From: Planctomycetaceae bacterium
GTDB taxonomy: Bacteria; Planctomycetota; Planctomycetia; Planctomycetales; Planctomycetaceae
Length of the DNA: 64,000 nt
Assembly (NCBI GenBank): GCA_028284485.1
Contig: JANQRQ010000226.1
Span: 1 to 64,000 of the forward strand
Reading direction: 5' to 3'
A program made the translations under genes and the position numbers. The notes beneath the pieces are model-generated. The model searched no databases. It had not been told where the DNA came from and saw only the letters and a list, made by a program, of their open reading frames with translations. Numbering within the stretch: the stretch's first letter is position 1; every line of letters begins with the position of its first letter. Of the stretch, positions 16,515-56,284 are shown piece after piece.

Positions 16515-16893
16515 CGGTAACCAAGACCCACTCAAAAGGGTAACGCACTCAAAAGGGTAACGCACTCAAGTCCAAACACGGTAGGAACTAACGGCACAGC
16601 CCCCGTCGCGAATGTCGATGCGCACCTAGTATCCTATTTAAGACGCTTAAACCAGGCAATAAGTTCCCACGAAATCTGAATCCGGTCGCCTCCCGCGAAA
16701 GTTATCGTTTGTACAGTAACACGCCCGCAGCCTGACCGAGTTCACTGTCGTGCGGTTGTCATTCCTACCCCACAAATGCCGCGCTGAAAACGTAATCTCG
16801 TTGACTGCCGCACGCATCGCCTCGAAGATGAATCTGGCGGTATCTGACTGGACGGTCGGTCGGCCCTCCCCTCACTCCGGCAGCGAGTTCGAC
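16515..16893. other. Divergent intergenic region with tandem 17-bp repeat
   Basis: The region separates the minus-strand anti-sigma-like gene from the plus-strand membrane protein gene and should contain both promoters. It holds one 17-bp tandem duplication close to the minus-strand start. The plus-strand frame is open back to 16750, so the membrane protein could start at 16828 (ATG) instead of 16894. Confidence 0.5.
16531..16564. repeat. Perfect 17-bp tandem duplication
   Basis: The unit CTCAAAAGGGTAACGCA occurs twice without a mismatch (16531-16547 and 16548-16564), followed by a partial third copy (CTCAAG). On the minus strand it lies 17-50 bp before the start codon of the anti-sigma-like gene, where an operator or leader could sit. 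Confidence 0.9.
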
Positions 16894-49013: not shown

Positions 49014-49311
49014 CCGTTTTGTTGGGCAAGGATGTGTGGCGCACGCTCCGTGATATCAGTTTCTCCAGCGGCATGGGTGATGTCCAGCATCCTCTCTGTT
49101 ACCCCATGCACCGATTGGTGTTGCCGTAACTTAGCGCCCGTTTGTGACAAACTTCGTGACGGATGGCAATCAAATTGTTAAGGTTATTGTTAGTGGTAAC
49201 GAGAAGCGATCATCGGCCGAAAGGTCGACTATTCTCCCCTTGATTGCATTTGCGCAGACCAAAGTCGCTTGCCCATTCACGCGGTTGTTCATAACCGCAA
49301 AGGAGTATGCG

Positions 49312-51312
49312 ATGTCTCGTTCCCTCTTCACTTTCGCGTCGCTGCTGTTAATGTCGATTTGGCCGAATTCTCCATTATTTGCGCAGTTCGAACCGAATCA
49401 ACGTTTTCAGTTCCCGCCGACTCAGCGAAACCAATCGCAGTCAACGCAATCTCAGCAAAGCCAGTCTCAGAACAATCAATCCCCCAACAACCAGCAACCA
49501 CGAAGGTCCAATCCCCCGCCTCCCAATTTGCAGGAGCTATTCGAGTATTTCACGCCACAAAACCAGCCGCCGGCGCCGCAACAATTTGGACGATTCCCCC
49601 AGAATCCCAATTCCTATACTCCGACAGACACTTCAGCTTCGCCAACAATCCGAAACTCGCCCCCACCAATTCCCACACCGTCTGATGTCGCAAGCATGAC
49701 AGCGGAACAACAGCGCTCGTTATTACGCGAAGCCGTGCTGCGGCTCGATCAAGAATTAACGGGAATGAACACAGGCAGCGGTTGGAAAAGATTTCTGCTG
49801 ATCGAACAATTGGGAAGCAACCTGTGGAACATCGGTTCGGTCGCTCCGGATCACAATACTCGCGAGTCATTAGTGGCCGTGGCGGATCGTTTTAAATCGG
49901 TCAACGAAAACCCCGCCTACGATCAGATTCAGTCCCTGTGGGGTTTCCAGGTGGTCATCGCAGTCTTATCGGAGTTTGCCGCAGACCCCATCGATCGCAA
50001 AAAGCGCGAGGTCGCTGAAGAATTGGCAAAACTAAGCCGCTCGCTGAGCCGGCTTCACAATGGTTCTAATTGGAATGAGTATCTGCGACTCGACCGATTG
50101 AACAGCCTGGCGATGTCGTCCAAGACATTAGCACGCCCCGATCGGGAGATACTTAAAGAAATCGCTCGTCGATTCCGAGCAGTCTCCGGCAACCCCGATT
50201 ACGACGCAATTGCCCGCCTTTACGGTTTTGACGAAACGCGCCGCAGCCTGGATGAACTCGCTACCGAAGCTGGGCGGACATTAAAGTTGGCAAGCGGCTC
50301 GCTGACACCTTGCCGTGCCACGCAGACCAGACTGCTCGTCGAAGGGCTAGCTCTCAATGCGCAAAGGCTGAATGTGTTACAGCAAGGTCTTAGCGAAGCA
50401 CAACAGGCCTGGTCTGAACTCAAGCCGGACTCAGCTGAAGCCGAGCGGGCTCGAAGAATTCAAGAAATCATTCAAGGCATGGCCGACGACGCCGAAGACG
50501 AGCGCCAGGCACGTGCGAAGAAGATTCGCGAGATCATCGCCGCAATGATCGCCGAGGAGGAAGGAAATGACAGTGCATCAGACGCGGACGATACTGTCAT
50601 GCTGCTGCAATTCGACGAGGACTCAGAAACGGACGAAGAGGATACGGTTATGGTGCTTCAGTTCGATGATGAGCCTGAGTCAGACGCCACGGATTCGGTC
50701 ATGGTGTTGCAGTTTGAGGAGGAGGAAGAAGAAGACTCCGGTACGATTACCCTCCTGCAGTTCTCCGACGTTACCGATGACTCCGACGTTACCGATGACG
50801 AAGACGAACAGGACGAGGAGGAGGACGAGCCCGAATACATTCTGTTGCAGTTCTCAGACGCCCACGAACAGTCGGACAATGAAGAGCCGGAGCATATTCT
50901 CTTTCAATTCTCCGATGTTGAAGATCGAGCGGACGACGAAGAACCGAAGTACCATCTGTTTCAGTTTTCGGACGCCGAGGAGCAGCGGCAGAAAGCCGAA
51001 CAGTCGACGGAACAAAGCACAAGTGAAACCAGCCGGCCGCCGAACATCGTCCTGCGAGATCTGGCGCGAAGTTTCAGCACACTCCTGCACACCCGTCGCC
51101 AGAAAACTGCAGCGGAAGACGCCTGGACGGCAGCCCAATCAGAACCCGACTCGACCGGTGCGGCCGGTACACTCGTTTCGAAAGCTGAGGCGCACTATGA
51201 CGAGGCCGAATCTGACACCGAACAGCGCATCGCCGAAGTGATCCGCATGTTGTACGAACGGAACAAATCGGATTCCGACGAAAACGAGACGCTCGAGTTA
51301 AAGGACGACTAG
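49312..51312 (+). CDS. Secreted protein with seven acidic LQF repeats
   Basis: 666 residues from ATG 49312 (ribosome site AAGGAG). A signal peptide (MSRSLFTFASLLLMSIW...LFAQ) is followed by a Gln/Asn/Ser/Pro-rich region to about residue 120. Residues about 130-310 hold two tandem repeats of about 95 residues, each ending in a RFxxVxxNPxYDxIxxLxGF block. Residues about 425-560 contain seven copies of a hydrophobic core (VMLLQF, VMVLQF, VMVLQF, ITLLQF, YILLQF, HILFQF, YHLFQF) set in stretches made almost only of Asp and Glu. The end is helical and Lys/Glu-rich. I do not recognise a family. Its stop codon TAG is part of the first bases of repeat copy D. Confidence 0.78.
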   Translation: MSRSLFTFASLLLMSIWPNSPLFAQFEPNQRFQFPPTQRNQSQSTQSQQSQSQNNQSPNNQQPRRSNPPPPNLQELFEYFTPQNQPPAPQQFGRFPQNPNSYTPTDTSASPTIRNSPPPIPTPSDVASMTAEQQRSLLREAVLRLDQELTGMNTGSGWKRFLLIEQLGSNLWNIGSVAPDHNTRESLVAVADRFKSVNENPAYDQIQSLWGFQVVIAVLSEFAADPIDRKKREVAEELAKLSRSLSRLHNGSNWNEYLRLDRLNSLAMSSKTLARPDREILKEIARRFRAVSGNPDYDAIARLYGFDETRRSLDELATEAGRTLKLASGSLTPCRATQTRLLVEGLALNAQRLNVLQQGLSEAQQAWSELKPDSAEAERARRIQEIIQGMADDAEDERQARAKKIREIIAAMIAEEEGNDSASDADDTVMLLQFDEDSETDEEDTVMVLQFDDEPESDATDSVMVLQFEEEEEEDSGTITLLQFSDVTDDSDVTDDEDEQDEEEDEPEYILLQFSDAHEQSDNEEPEHILFQFSDVEDRADDEEPKYHLFQFSDAEEQRQKAEQSTEQSTSETSRPPNIVLRDLARSFSTLLHTRRQKTAAEDAWTAAQSEPDSTGAAGTLVSKAEAHYDEAESDTEQRIAEVIRMLYERNKSDSDENETLELKDD

Positions 51313-51442: not shown

Positions 51443-52381
51443 TCACACGGTAATGACGTGAATCCTAGACATCGCCCGGTCGAGGACGGCCACTTCGTTT
51501 TCGTTGATAATCGCGAGATCAAATCCTTTTCGGCCACATTCGATCGTTCGATTCTCTTCCGCTTGAACCGTCTCAGCAAACATCTCCGGGCCGGCAATCT
51601 GCTCCACGACCCGACCACCAAGGCTGTAGAGCTTGATCCGGGGAATGCCCTGCTCAGCGGTCAAAAGCGAACCACCACCCAGCACGACGAAGCTGACCGG
51701 ATTACAACAACCACTAAACCCGAATAGCTCGCGCGACTTGTGACCGAATCGAGCGAGCAACTTGCCTTCCGGCGAATAAGTTTCGATCCGATGCCGGCTG
51801 GGGTTACCAATTAACAATTCGCCTTCGGCACTCTCGCGCAGATGGAAGAATTCCGCAGGGACATTGGTGGGAGTTAACTTCGACAATTCCCGAACGGCCG
51901 CGTCGGCTCGGCTGACTCTCCACAACGATTGCCGAGAAGCATCGGTGGCAAATAGCGCCTCTTCTTTTGTCACGATACCCGTCACCAGACTCCGGTTCGG
52001 TAGTGAGAAAACTTCGACCGATTCCAGTGTGTCTGCCGAGAGGCGGTGAATCTCCGATCCCATACCGATGAAAAGATCTTGATTTTGATCAAGCACAATG
52101 GCGCGAACCGGTCGGGGCAATGCCCTTTCCATCACGACTCGGCCTGCCTGGCTGACGACTTGCAGCAATCCCTTTTGCTCACCGATCGCGGAGACAACAA
52201 AACCATCATCAGGATGCGCTGCAATTCGCAAAGGATGTCCCGTATCGAGAGAGATCGTACGGTTGAAGCCCTCCGTCGACGGTGAATTGTCAGCCCGAAT
52301 TGTTGACGTCGCCAACATGGCCGAAGCTGCTGCCGACGATGCCAGAAAATCGCGCCGGGTCGAACTGAATGGTTGATTCAT
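51443..52381 (-). CDS. Tat-exported beta-propeller protein with CCNP motif
   Basis: 312 residues with a Tat signal (STRRDFLASSAAASAMLATS). The rest is a series of NHL-like propeller strands (DDGFVVSAIGEQKGLLQVV, QNQDLFIGMGSEIHRLS, EGELLIGNPSRHRIETYSPE). A vicinal cysteine motif FSGCCNPVSF precedes the strand GGGSLLTAEQGIPRIKLYS. The same motif and strand order occur in the first gene of this operon. Its ATG overlaps the stop of the preceding gene (ATGA), so it is translationally coupled as the third gene. Ligand and role are unknown; binding of a metal or redox partner by the Cys pair is possible. Confidence 0.8.
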   Translation of the reverse strand: MNQPFSSTRRDFLASSAAASAMLATSTIRADNSPSTEGFNRTISLDTGHPLRIAAHPDDGFVVSAIGEQKGLLQVVSQAGRVVMERALPRPVRAIVLDQNQDLFIGMGSEIHRLSADTLESVEVFSLPNRSLVTGIVTKEEALFATDASRQSLWRVSRADAAVRELSKLTPTNVPAEFFHLRESAEGELLIGNPSRHRIETYSPEGKLLARFGHKSRELFGFSGCCNPVSFVVLGGGSLLTAEQGIPRIKLYSLGGRVVEQIAGPEMFAETVQAEENRTIECGRKGFDLAIINENEVAVLDRAMSRIHVITV

Positions 52382-54426
52382 CGATCATTCTCCAAAGAAA
52401 TCGCCAGGAGTTGTTTATCGTTTCTGAGATACAAGCGATCGCCAATGATCGCCGGGTGCGACATTGTTTCCGTTTCATCACCAAATGGCTGCCAACGCGA
52501 TACCACCTCGTACGACTCAGAATCGCTGCGAATCAGCAGCAAATCACCAGTCGTGGTAAAGATCAAAACGCGGTTGTTACCCGCAATCAGGGTCGTATGA
52601 TCGTAGAACAAATCGTCGTCCTGAACCCATACGGTCTTGAGATCGTCCTTCAAGTCCAAACAAAACAACTGCCCGTATGCAGTAAGAAAAACTCGGTCGT
52701 CAATGACCACGGGAGTACAGGTATCGGGAGCCGCGTCCAGATTCTCAGCAACCGGTTCCGGTTTGAGGCGGCCCGACTCATCGAATTCATAAAGTCGCGT
52801 CCCGCTATTCTCAGTTGCCACCATCAGCTTATTGTCCCACGCGATCGGGGTACCGACGTTGAAGTCCGACGCATCGGGCGGGATTAACTCCCATAATCGT
52901 TTGCCGGAAGCAACGTCCCAGCCACCCAAGCTGGCCGAGTCGTAACCGATCGCTTGTCGCTTCCGCCCACACGACACGGGGACAAAAGCGGAATACGCCG
53001 CGGCATGCCCGGGAGTTTCCCAAACCGTTTTGCCGTCAAACCGATCGAGGGCCACCATCGAGGCTTGCTCAGCTCCGGGATTGGTCAGCAGTAATCGCCC
53101 TTGAATCAACGGTGGAGTACAGCTTCCCCACGTCAATAGTTCAGTTTGATAATCGCCAACTAGGTTGCGTTGCCAGCGAACGTCGCCCGAAACCAATTCC
53201 ACGCAACTTAAATCGCCCAACGCCCCCTGAAAGTAAACCAGATCATCGACCACTATCGGCATCGCACGCGGCGCATTGGTGTATTGCAGTTGCTTAGGGG
53301 AAGGAACGGCAACATGCCATAGCGGCTTCCCTGTTGTCGCATCAAAGCAACGATACACATCGTTTTGCAATTCCTGGTCTTTATCGGCGGTCAGCACGTA
53401 GTCGGCGCTCGCTGCAATTCCGGAAAGCGCGGGGCCGGTCACATCAGCGCTCCAGATAATCTGCGGTTCTACCGAAAGACGCTGCGGCAGTGATCGCGAC
53501 GTCCCGTCGCCGGCAGGTCCACGCCATTCGACCCAGTTCTCGTCCAAGCCTGCCACTTCAATCGCGACAAAGCCCGACTTCGATTCGAGCTTTGTCATCA
53601 ATTGCAGCTCCTCATTGAGGTGCAGGAAGGCCGATTCCAAGATCGACATTTCGCCGGACGAAATGTTGGAACTCGCAAACAGAGTCACAAACGGAACTGC
53701 GGCCGTCTTGGCAACGATTCTGAGCGAACCCGGTTCGATCTTGCCACACCCTTCGAGCAGCGGTGGCAGATAGTGAGAAATCACAGCCACATCTGCTTCA
53801 CCATCCGCGACGGAATAGACCGCCTCTTCAAGCGAATGTGCAATTTGAACATGCTCGGCATTCCAGATTTGTGCTGATTTTAGTCGATTTATTGCCGCGA
53901 CATGCGATTCCTGATCTTCCTTCGGACCCAAAACGATCCGAGCGTCCTTCAGGTTCGCTGTCGATTGAAATTGGCTTTCCGCAGGGACAAGAAAAATCCC
54001 ATGCAGATCGGTTTCACCATCCCAGTCGGTCAACCGCAGCATCGGAGTCACAGGGAAGTTGGCCTGATCGGCATCATGCTGTACAACGGATGCCTTACCG
54101 ATGATGAGATCAAAGTCTCGCCCGAATCGATCAAACGCCAGGTTGAAACTCTCTTCGTAGAAAACCTGAACCGGGCGGTTCAACGATCGCGCAAGGGCCT
54201 GCTCCAAAGCCCCATAGTCACGCTGCCCACGACCGGGAACACAGGCACAAGACAACGGTGCCGCTAGTGGATCCATGACCAGGATTCGTAACGTGTCAGA
54301 ATCATTTGCCTGTTCAAACTGTGCATGAATTGCACCGGCAAACGCCACCAGCAACAGGGCGCAACCGGCAGGAAACCCGCACCGGATCATTCGCCAATTC
54401 GATTTTGCGCGAGAAAGCTGATTCAC
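52378..54426 (-). CDS. PhnD-like binding domain fused to PQQ-type beta-propeller
   Basis: 682 residues from GTG 54426, which overlaps the stop of the upstream gene (GTGA). A signal peptide (RMIRCGFPAGCALLLVAFAG) leads to an N-terminal periplasmic-binding domain of the PhnD/phosphonate type: YGALEQALARSLNRPVQVFY, FDLIIGKASVVQHDA, KDARIVLGPKEDQESHVAA and EAVYSVADGEADVAVISHY. From about residue 310 the sequence turns into a PQQ-type propeller (WVEWRGPAGDGTSRSLPQR, FDATTGKPLWHVAVP, YDSASLGGWDVASGKRLWEL). The combination is unusual. It is the middle gene of a coupled three-gene operon between two CCNP-motif propeller genes. A sensor or ligand-binding role outside the cytoplasm is inferred. Confidence 0.8.
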   Translation of the reverse strand: MNQLSRAKSNWRMIRCGFPAGCALLLVAFAGAIHAQFEQANDSDTLRILVMDPLAAPLSCACVPGRGQRDYGALEQALARSLNRPVQVFYEESFNLAFDRFGRDFDLIIGKASVVQHDADQANFPVTPMLRLTDWDGETDLHGIFLVPAESQFQSTANLKDARIVLGPKEDQESHVAAINRLKSAQIWNAEHVQIAHSLEEAVYSVADGEADVAVISHYLPPLLEGCGKIEPGSLRIVAKTAAVPFVTLFASSNISSGEMSILESAFLHLNEELQLMTKLESKSGFVAIEVAGLDENWVEWRGPAGDGTSRSLPQRLSVEPQIIWSADVTGPALSGIAASADYVLTADKDQELQNDVYRCFDATTGKPLWHVAVPSPKQLQYTNAPRAMPIVVDDLVYFQGALGDLSCVELVSGDVRWQRNLVGDYQTELLTWGSCTPPLIQGRLLLTNPGAEQASMVALDRFDGKTVWETPGHAAAYSAFVPVSCGRKRQAIGYDSASLGGWDVASGKRLWELIPPDASDFNVGTPIAWDNKLMVATENSGTRLYEFDESGRLKPEPVAENLDAAPDTCTPVVIDDRVFLTAYGQLFCLDLKDDLKTVWVQDDDLFYDHTTLIAGNNRVLIFTTTGDLLLIRSDSESYEVVSRWQPFGDETETMSHPAIIGDRLYLRNDKQLLAISLENDR

Positions 54427-55484
54427 GATTTGATCCGTTCCAAGACACGGACGAAATTGGCCCGGACATCCATCACATAAATGCGGTCGGCGTTCGGTCC
54501 GATTTCGATCGGGATATAACACGACTGTGCTGCCAATCGGCTGCCACGATCGAACTTGGTGGTATCCACGTAGCCGACCAATCCAAGGTACTCGCCATCG
54601 GGTGAATATTTTTTAACGCGGCCGACACCCGACTCGGCCGTGTAGAGCACATTGTCAGCAGCGAAATCGAAATTCACGGGATTGCAACAGGCAGCAAACC
54701 CTTTGATCGATGTGCGGTCGCGGCGCCCCCAACGACCTAGCAATTCGCCATCGAGTGAGAATCGGTTGACGCGGTGCCGCGAGTTTTCCGCAATCAGCAA
54801 TTCCCCATTCCGTATGTCCAAATCGAGATGGGCGCAACAACCGTATTGACGCTCGACGACCTGCTTCGCGCCCGTCAAGTCGCGCTGGAACCGATGGATT
54901 TCTTCCGTCGCCCGCAAACTCCACCCATCGCCGAACGCCAAGAAAACATAATCTTCGTTCGCCGTGATCCCGCTGGCGTGAGCTTCCGTCAAATAGCCAT
55001 CGTACAAATCTGCAAAGCTGATCGAATGCTTGGGTCGACCCGACGCATCGTAGCAGGTCATTCGTCCCATGCCCGCCACGTAGATGTCCCCGTCGGGCAT
55101 GGCATGGACCATCTTCGGGACTTGATCGTCCAGCCGCCATTCGTCGACCACTGTTCCTCGATCGTTGACGAACTTGATGGAATATTGCCGCTCGCCAGGG
55201 GCCGGTCCGCGTGCTCCGCGGCGTCGAATGGAATTTCGCGACGCGGCGTTCGAAGAGACTGCCAACAACAATCGTTGCTGATGGTCCATCGCCATGGTTT
55301 CGATTTTGCCACCCGAGCCAAGTGAGACCTTAATCGGCGCGACCTCAATATGCGTCGGATCACCGCCAGCAGTTGGCGGGACGTCGACGTTAATCGGACG
55401 CCGCTGGGCGTAGGTGGTGGTGTTGCAGAGGATCAACAGAGCCAGAAGGGTCGGCACACAAATCGCCGACGTGCGGAAGGACAT
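54423..55484 (-). CDS. Secreted NHL-type beta-propeller protein with CCNP motif
   Basis: 353 residues from ATG 55484, which starts a Sec signal peptide (MSFRTSAICVPTLLALLILCNTT...YAQ). The upstream extension in the same frame lacks a signal-like start. The mature protein is a propeller with strands such as IKFVNDRGTVVDEWRL, MPDGDIYVAGMGRMTCYDAS, LLIAENSRHRVNRFSLDGEL and NVLYTAESGVGRVKKYSPDG. It contains GFAACCNPVNF, the counterpart of GFSGCCNPVSF in the third gene, and a second Cys pair in YGCCAHLDLD. It is the first gene of the coupled operon. Confidence 0.82.
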   Translation of the reverse strand: MSFRTSAICVPTLLALLILCNTTTYAQRRPINVDVPPTAGGDPTHIEVAPIKVSLGSGGKIETMAMDHQQRLLLAVSSNAASRNSIRRRGARGPAPGERQYSIKFVNDRGTVVDEWRLDDQVPKMVHAMPDGDIYVAGMGRMTCYDASGRPKHSISFADLYDGYLTEAHASGITANEDYVFLAFGDGWSLRATEEIHRFQRDLTGAKQVVERQYGCCAHLDLDIRNGELLIAENSRHRVNRFSLDGELLGRWGRRDRTSIKGFAACCNPVNFDFAADNVLYTAESGVGRVKKYSPDGEYLGLVGYVDTTKFDRGSRLAAQSCYIPIEIGPNADRIYVMDVRANFVRVLERIKS

Positions 55485-56284
55485 GCGAATCTCCGGTGAA
55501 ATCAGCCGATCACGATCGATGACAGTACTTATTAAACCCCGCATTTCTCACGAGGTTTTGCCGAAACAGTTTTGATTCGGTACGCGGCACCAGCCTTCCT
55601 ACCTGCCATTCTATCGGATCGTAGGCGGTATTCACCCCCAAGAGAGGGGATTCTCGCCAGGAACTCTCTCAGCAATGCATTGCCGCAGCATGATTCTAGA
55701 CACCCTCGAGACTTACTGCAGCGGCTGGTGCACATTGAATCGCGTCGAGAACAACTCAAATGCCGCTTCGTCTTTTTTCAGCGTGCTTTAACGTGCCCGT
55801 GGTTGGAGGGCATCGCCCGAGACACGAGGCTTCCTTCCCGTTGCTCTGCCCAGCCCCGGCCACCCATTCCCAATTCTTAACAGTGACAATGCACGAGACC
55901 GAGAGAACAAGTCTTCTCAGCCGACAAAGACTCGATTCGCCCCTTGTGCGTCCGCATCTGCTGCAGTACTTGGCGAACGGTCCGATGACCAAACAATCGG
56001 ACATCATTTGGTCATCAGCGGATCGTGCTCGCCACGCTGCTGGGTCCGCAGGGTAATTTCACCGACGCAGATCGTGCCAAAAGCAACTTGATTCACCGAT
56101 GCCTTCCGTCCACCCTGTGAAGTCCGAATTCACCTGATGCATACGTCGCAGTCCTGACGGCTTCTCGGTTTTTTGTGAATGACGAGAAGAGTTCTCGGGG
56201 CTGATGATTACGGTAAATGGTGCTACTGTAGTTCGATTTATGTTGTGTGGTGGCAACACAACCATTTTTTGCACGCACGGCAAG
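55485..56284. other. Gene-poor stretch, no supported coding region
   Basis: Several short frames on both strands (up to about 100 codons) exist but none resembles a known family and none has a ribosome site. The composition of the best plus-strand frame (from 55760) is unremarkable. The only clear structure is the plus-strand terminator at 56241-56270, which has no obvious gene ahead of it. The stretch may be decayed coding sequence or carry a non-coding transcript. Confidence 0.5.
56241..56270 (+). terminator. Plus-strand intrinsic terminator without a gene upstream
   Basis: GTTGTGT pairs with ACACAAC around the loop GGTGGCA and is followed by CATTTTTTGC. The T-run is on the plus strand only; the nearest gene on the minus strand would not use it. 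Confidence 0.7.

Follow-up and report, generated by a model that had tools for sequence, protein, structure and literature searches.

Within the 64,000-nucleotide stretch of DNA that was analyzed (hereafter, the window), a gene on the forward strand (49312 to 51312) encodes a protein of 666 residues. Its reading frame is open to position 51312, and a ribosome-binding-like AAGGAG (49300 to 49305) lies just 5' of the ATG at 49312. The gene stands alone, the upstream neighbor being divergent and the downstream neighbor convergent, and since the neighborhoods of its relatives have no genes in common, we do not propose a partner from gene context. The three convergent downstream genes (51443 to 55544, reverse strand), which are not adjacent to the gene in the relatives, encode an apparently exported protein with no Pfam match, a fusion of a phosphonate-binding part with a PQQ beta-propeller, and an NHL-repeat protein. 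Elsewhere in the window, a perfect 17-bp tandem repeat of 2.4 copies occupies positions 16529 to 16569, and an Rfam search across the window gave no match.

Modular layout of the encoded protein

The protein has a modular layout, consisting of an apparent signal peptide, a spacer, two helical domains, and two hairpins that enclose an acidic array predicted to be disordered (Table 1). The signal peptide (MSRSLFTFASLLLMSIWPNSPLFA) was called by eye and not by a predictor; a hydrophobic leader is found at the N terminus of the relatives as well, and the protein is probably exported. The N-terminal spacer includes a short, conserved amphipathic stretch (49519 to 49557; PPNLQELFEYFTP), with equivalents at the same position in the relatives L057, L058, L053, and L002 (sequences recorded in relatives: GPTAEDILRMLFPPE, GPTPEEIFRLLIPQE, and APQDVQRMLESFLP), which may represent an additional motif for docking or membrane binding.

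Table 1. Coordinates of the features of the window protein, and cores of its array-bearing relatives
Feature	Position	Strand	Residues	Remarks
Apparent signal peptide MSRSLFTFASLLLMSIWPNSPLFAQ	49312..49386	+	1-25	Read by eye
Gln/Asn/Pro-rich spacer	49387..49677	+	26-122	Disordered in the model except for a short helix (73-78)
Two tandem ~97-residue all-helical domains	49678..50292	+	123-327	Conserved part of the family
Helical hairpin 1	50308..50571	+	333-420	Model pLDDT about 66-76
Acidic array with seven cores	50581..50988	+	424-559	Disordered in the model
Core 1	50596..50613	+	from 429	VMLLQF
Core 2	50647..50664	+	from 446	VMVLQF
Core 3	50698..50715	+	from 463	VMVLQF
Core 4	50746..50763	+	from 479	ITLLQF
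Core 5	50836..50853	+	from 509	YILLQF
Core 6	50893..50910	+	from 528	HILFQF
Core 7	50950..50967	+	from 547	YHLFQF
Helical hairpin 2	51040..51276	+	577-655	From the model
G118/L057 (casp40 MAG)				5 cores: VTLLQF, VMLMQF, VIVMQF, VVLMQF, VVLMQF
G040				3 cores: VILLQF, TTLMPL, TTLLPL
G836/L058 (NP86)				4 cores: VTLLQF, VTLLGF, AFVMGL, VKVLPI
G763				7 counted cores: VTVMPL, then six TTVMPL; plus one degraded copy
G440				2 cores: LKLIQP, IYLIQP

The structure models drew solely on the window protein and sequences from related loci, and the AlphaFold2 model of the full protein was built from the window protein and two relatives, that is, from a very thin alignment. In this model, twelve confident helices between residues 131 and 327 form two tandem copies of one six-helix layout, preceded by a short lead helix (123 to 127). 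The double domain of the casp40 relative, modeled separately, reached a mean pLDDT of 91. By eye, the second hairpin resembles the first in an AxxAW...DS... pattern, and helical segments can also be recognized before the array in the relatives G118 and G440. Between the helical parts, the model predicts disorder from residue 416 to residue 575, with a pLDDT below 50 over the array; it contains no stable strands there, and the brief ones at 447 to 449 and 464 to 466 are of very low confidence.

Neither the full model nor the domain model had a Foldseek match in the PDB at an E value of 0.001 or below, and sequence searches of the PDB with the domain and motif profiles were also negative. Furthermore, nothing above chance was obtained in Pfam and NCBIfam with the protein, the domain, the array, or the relatives. 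The earlier note knew of no named family for this form of repeat, and Pfam, NCBIfam, and the PDB sequences bear this out. The helical domain, for its part, defines a solid family of Planctomycetes that has no annotation.

The array and its seven hydrophobic cores

The earlier note had described seven hydrophobic cores ending in LQF or FQF in an acidic chain, and we confirmed all of them within residues 429 to 553. They follow the pattern [VITYH]-x-[LVH]-[LF]-Q-F-[DES], ending in LQF in five cases and in FQF in two, and the next residue is always D, E, or S. The cores start 17, 17, 16, 30, 19, and 19 residues apart, and the Asp/Glu-rich linkers between them measure 10 to 24 residues, in agreement with the 9 to 25 or so previously estimated. 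The 146 residues from 425 to 570 include 57 Asp/Glu and carry a net charge of -53. When the whole protein was shuffled 20,000 times with its composition preserved, [LF]QF[DES], which it contains seven times, arose 0.08 times on average and at most 3 times; shuffling of the region only gave a mean of 0.05 and a maximum of 2. Counts so far below seven indicate that composition does not account for the core pattern.

At the nucleotide level, the seven-codon windows of the cores share identities of 0.43 to 0.76, and their codons vary synonymously (CAA/CAG, TTC/TTT, and CTG/CTT/TTG). The only report of TRF over the array is an 18-bp duplication inside one linker (50763 to 50799), corresponding to six extra residues in the one long gap, and the program detected no DNA-level tandem repeat across either this array or that of G118. 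The synonymous changes and the lack of such a repeat make the cores of the window protein and of G118 look maintained rather than recently duplicated, as far as can be judged from sequence. A search of the organism's own genome with the motif profile retrieved this protein alone, all remaining matches having E values above 0.7, and an array so unique is not a general sorting tag. When 398 genomes of the class were searched with the same profile, we obtained the orthologues and one weak match antisense to an mfd gene, which was set aside as chance.

Distribution of the family and fate of the array

The gene is present in a single copy in its own genome (7.7 Mb, 363 contigs). With a profile of the double domain, relatives were found in 20 of 170 genomes of the same family, an order-level search giving an equal number of genomes, and in 25 of 398 genomes sampled from the class; none was found outside the class in a phylum-wide search of 294 genomes. 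The full-length matches to the family profile, which range from 1e-95 to about 1e-16, are exported-looking proteins, and the window protein fits this family. A scan of genome contigs with the window protein alone as the query returned no relative, and the same scan with an alignment as the query returned JAQCEJ010000141.1 (Planctomycetota MAG casp40-mb.109) and PBSM01000118.1 (Planctomycetaceae NP86).

The array-bearing gene is rare, being present in 2 of the 170 genomes searched in its family. Six such proteins were found in all, the window protein and five divergent relatives that belong to other genera and families, a small sample in which one member is broken in its record. In that member (L054 / L058; G836, NP86), stop codons interrupt the frame in the MAG record, which may reflect sequencing error or decay. 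From 2 to 7 or more copies are present in the relatives, and the core is recast among them as LMQF, T-V-M-P-L, L-L-P-L, or L-I-Q-P, an equivalence of QF, PL, and QP forms that rests on position, spacing, and the tree rather than on alignment score. G118 retains the pattern [VI]-x-[LV]-[LM]-Q-F-[EQS] in its five copies. Q and F are identical in 13 of 13 aligned QF copies from three proteins, partly by construction, as the copies were picked for QF. Proline lies within the cores of four of the five relatives (MPL, LPL, LPI, and LIQP), and glycine occurs in some (LGF and MGL). The charge per residue of the array is -0.39 in the window protein; in relatives whose cores are retained, it is -0.26, -0.13, -0.20, and -0.15. 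The array of G763 is recent tandem DNA (39-bp repeat, 88% match). After it, in the same reverse-strand locus (L055, about 932 to 1090), lies a second tandem array with a 17-residue unit (GKVDPKGPLGKLQLSET), seen in the DNA as a 51-bp repeat of 3.1 copies; a G763 paralogue, also on the reverse strand (L056), carries 12-residue, beta-helix-like repeats (GVKxGDLTxAxG) inside its first helical domain.

In the domain tree, the five intact array-bearing members, which come from three families and show long internal divergence, fall on one side of a branch with a support of 93/94; from these sequences, a single origin of the array is compatible with the data but not proven. About 20 other relatives (G026, genus g72, g32, g66, f7, and others) are exported-looking and have a low-complexity N terminus and the same two helical domains, but these domains lie near the C terminus and are followed by short Pro-rich ends, with neither an LQF array nor a long hairpin region. 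Their spacers are His rich, Gly-Tyr rich, or made of PAPVQK repeats, as observed in L010 to L020 (genus g72), L032, and L037. These sequences suggest that the family could serve as a scaffold, at the surface or in the matrix, whose low-complexity parts are interchangeable. Regarding conservation in relatives, which the earlier note had proposed to check, the pattern is not lost in all orthologues, as five relatives retain arrays; what is not conserved is the copy number, and most relatives with the domains lack the array altogether.

A putative docking tail and its alternatives

The best explanation, and one that we hold with about even confidence, is that the protein is an exported helical scaffold whose tail docks multivalently. 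Its folded part, which anchors or assembles, would comprise the tandem helical domains and the hairpins, and the long acidic disordered segment would display seven near-equivalent short hydrophobic peptides, each of which could dock, in an extended form, into a groove on its binding partner. Candidates for this role are another protein of the envelope or the extracellular space and, in trans, the helical domain of the scaffold itself. Many weak contacts would sum to a strong binding dependent on copy number, and the acidic linkers would maintain the chain in a soluble, extended state and may guide it toward a basic surface. Among the three ideas of the earlier note, namely, calcium binding, a beta-stacked fiber, and partner docking, the last is the best supported, since the cores are kept across genera and families while their number and the linkers vary, and the chain is predicted to be disordered, albeit by a thin-alignment model. 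The protein presents what characterizes docking tails as a class: a short hydrophobic motif that recurs along a disordered region, with a conserved core and a variable number. It follows from the persistence of the cores, while linkers and number change, that the core is the retained element, and charge is not, because acidity falls to its lowest values with the cores kept. The copies within a protein are alike, as expected if all of them fit one site, although recent duplication can produce the same likeness, as in G763. Against docking stand the rarity of the array gene, the relatives that live with the same domains and no array, and the fact that no partner was found for a lone gene whose neighbors differ among relatives.

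The strongly hydrophobic, beta-prone cores of the window protein and G118, the regular spacing of 15 to 19 residues, and the brief strands of the model would also suit self-assembly, in which the cores stack as short beta strands between molecules into a fiber or a functional-amyloid-like matrix and the acidic linkers hold the strands apart until pH or cations screen the charge. We consider this unlikely: the low confidence of those strands, the lack of stable ones, and the absence of a curli-type match in Pfam, or of any known amyloid repeat profile above chance, have weakened the idea of a beta-stacked fiber, and the proline and glycine inside the relatives' cores suit stacked strands poorly, the proline in four relatives being suited instead to an extended docking peptide. 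Equally doubtful is that the array is low-complexity sequence under weak constraint. Secreted proteins of planctomycetes often contain tandem duplications with little function, the number of copies and the letters of the core drift, the array of G763 is recent tandem DNA, the gene is rare, and most family members lack an array; however, neither the window protein nor G118 has an array that is tandemly repeated at the DNA level, Q and F are invariant in the QF copies (with the reservation made above) despite synonymous codon change in the window array, and the array-bearing members group in the tree. Slightly less probable again is that the acidic chain itself is functional, through loose calcium or metal binding or as the charge of a biomineral or matrix, with the cores incidental. 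The net charge of the region and the His-rich and other low-complexity segments of related members, which could bind metals, agree with such a role, but it leaves the regular cores unexplained, and relatives with far lower acidity keep them. Calcium binding in particular is not supported, as DxDxDG, GGxGxD, and DxNxD loops occur in none of the seven cores with their flanks and in none of the relatives, and no EF-hand, RTX, or dockerin-type pattern or Pfam match was found. Finally, the cores could mimic the terminal strand of outer-membrane proteins (aromatic-x-Phe) and interact with SurA, DegS/DegP, or BamA. They do end in x-Q-F, and a C-terminal YxF motif is recognized by DegS (PMC3582582), but we hold this to be very improbable, since the cores are internal, just 2 of the 7 contain aromatic-x-aromatic, which the relatives lack altogether, and YxF is absent from all seven and from the relatives.

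The proposed docking tail resembles two eukaryotic systems. The tail of FAM21 (WASHC2), which binds retromer, has 21 LFa motifs, two of which bind VPS35 and one VPS29 in a multi-site mechanism (PMC7618989); it is likewise long, acidic, and unstructured, and it carries many short motifs that combine hydrophobic and acidic residues. Different from the window protein, which is bacterial, apparently exported, and of a family whose cores end in Q-F or P-L, FAM21 is cytosolic and has Leu-Phe followed by acidic residues, and no sequence relationship between the two is shown. Leu-Phe directly followed by an acidic residue, as in every LFa repeat, was not found in the array, where LF is confined to cores 6 and 7 and precedes QFSD. 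The clathrin-binding tail of AP180/CALM, with about 11 short D(L/I)(L/F) motifs (PMC5004861), offers a similar combination of a helical domain and an unstructured tail with multiple short L/F-containing motifs, and the classical clathrin box pL-phi-p-phi-p loosely resembles LLQFD and LLPLE. However, the helical domains are unrelated and the compartment differs, clathrin-box proteins being cytosolic, against which the apparent signal peptide argues, and the strict box occurs in 2 of 7 cores in the window protein, 1 of 5 in G118, 0 of 3 in G040, and 2 of 4 in G836, hence in most copies of none of them. As strict motif tests fail for FAM21, AP180, SurA, DegS, EF-hand, RTX, and dockerin alike, the resemblance to FAM21 or AP180 would be one of logic and not of membership or ancestry. 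A literature search on planctomycete membrane-coat proteins gave no link to the window protein, and for this reason we do not propose a coat-protein partner.

Within eukaryotic cells, docking tails with multiple copies of a short motif have been studied in detail, and our literature search did not find such an array described in an exported bacterial protein. It is possible to hypothesize, as a speculation with a small chance of being right, that the protein is an independently evolved bacterial envelope adaptor of the FAM21/AP180 design, pairing a folded helical platform with a disordered acidic tail that repeats one docking peptide, which would gather a specific envelope protein by avidity, with peptide and receptor co-evolving from Q-F to P-L between lineages. 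The natural series of copy numbers (2 to 7 or more) and of core letters (QF, PL, and QP) in this small gene family would offer a test bed for avidity and for the co-evolution of motif and receptor.
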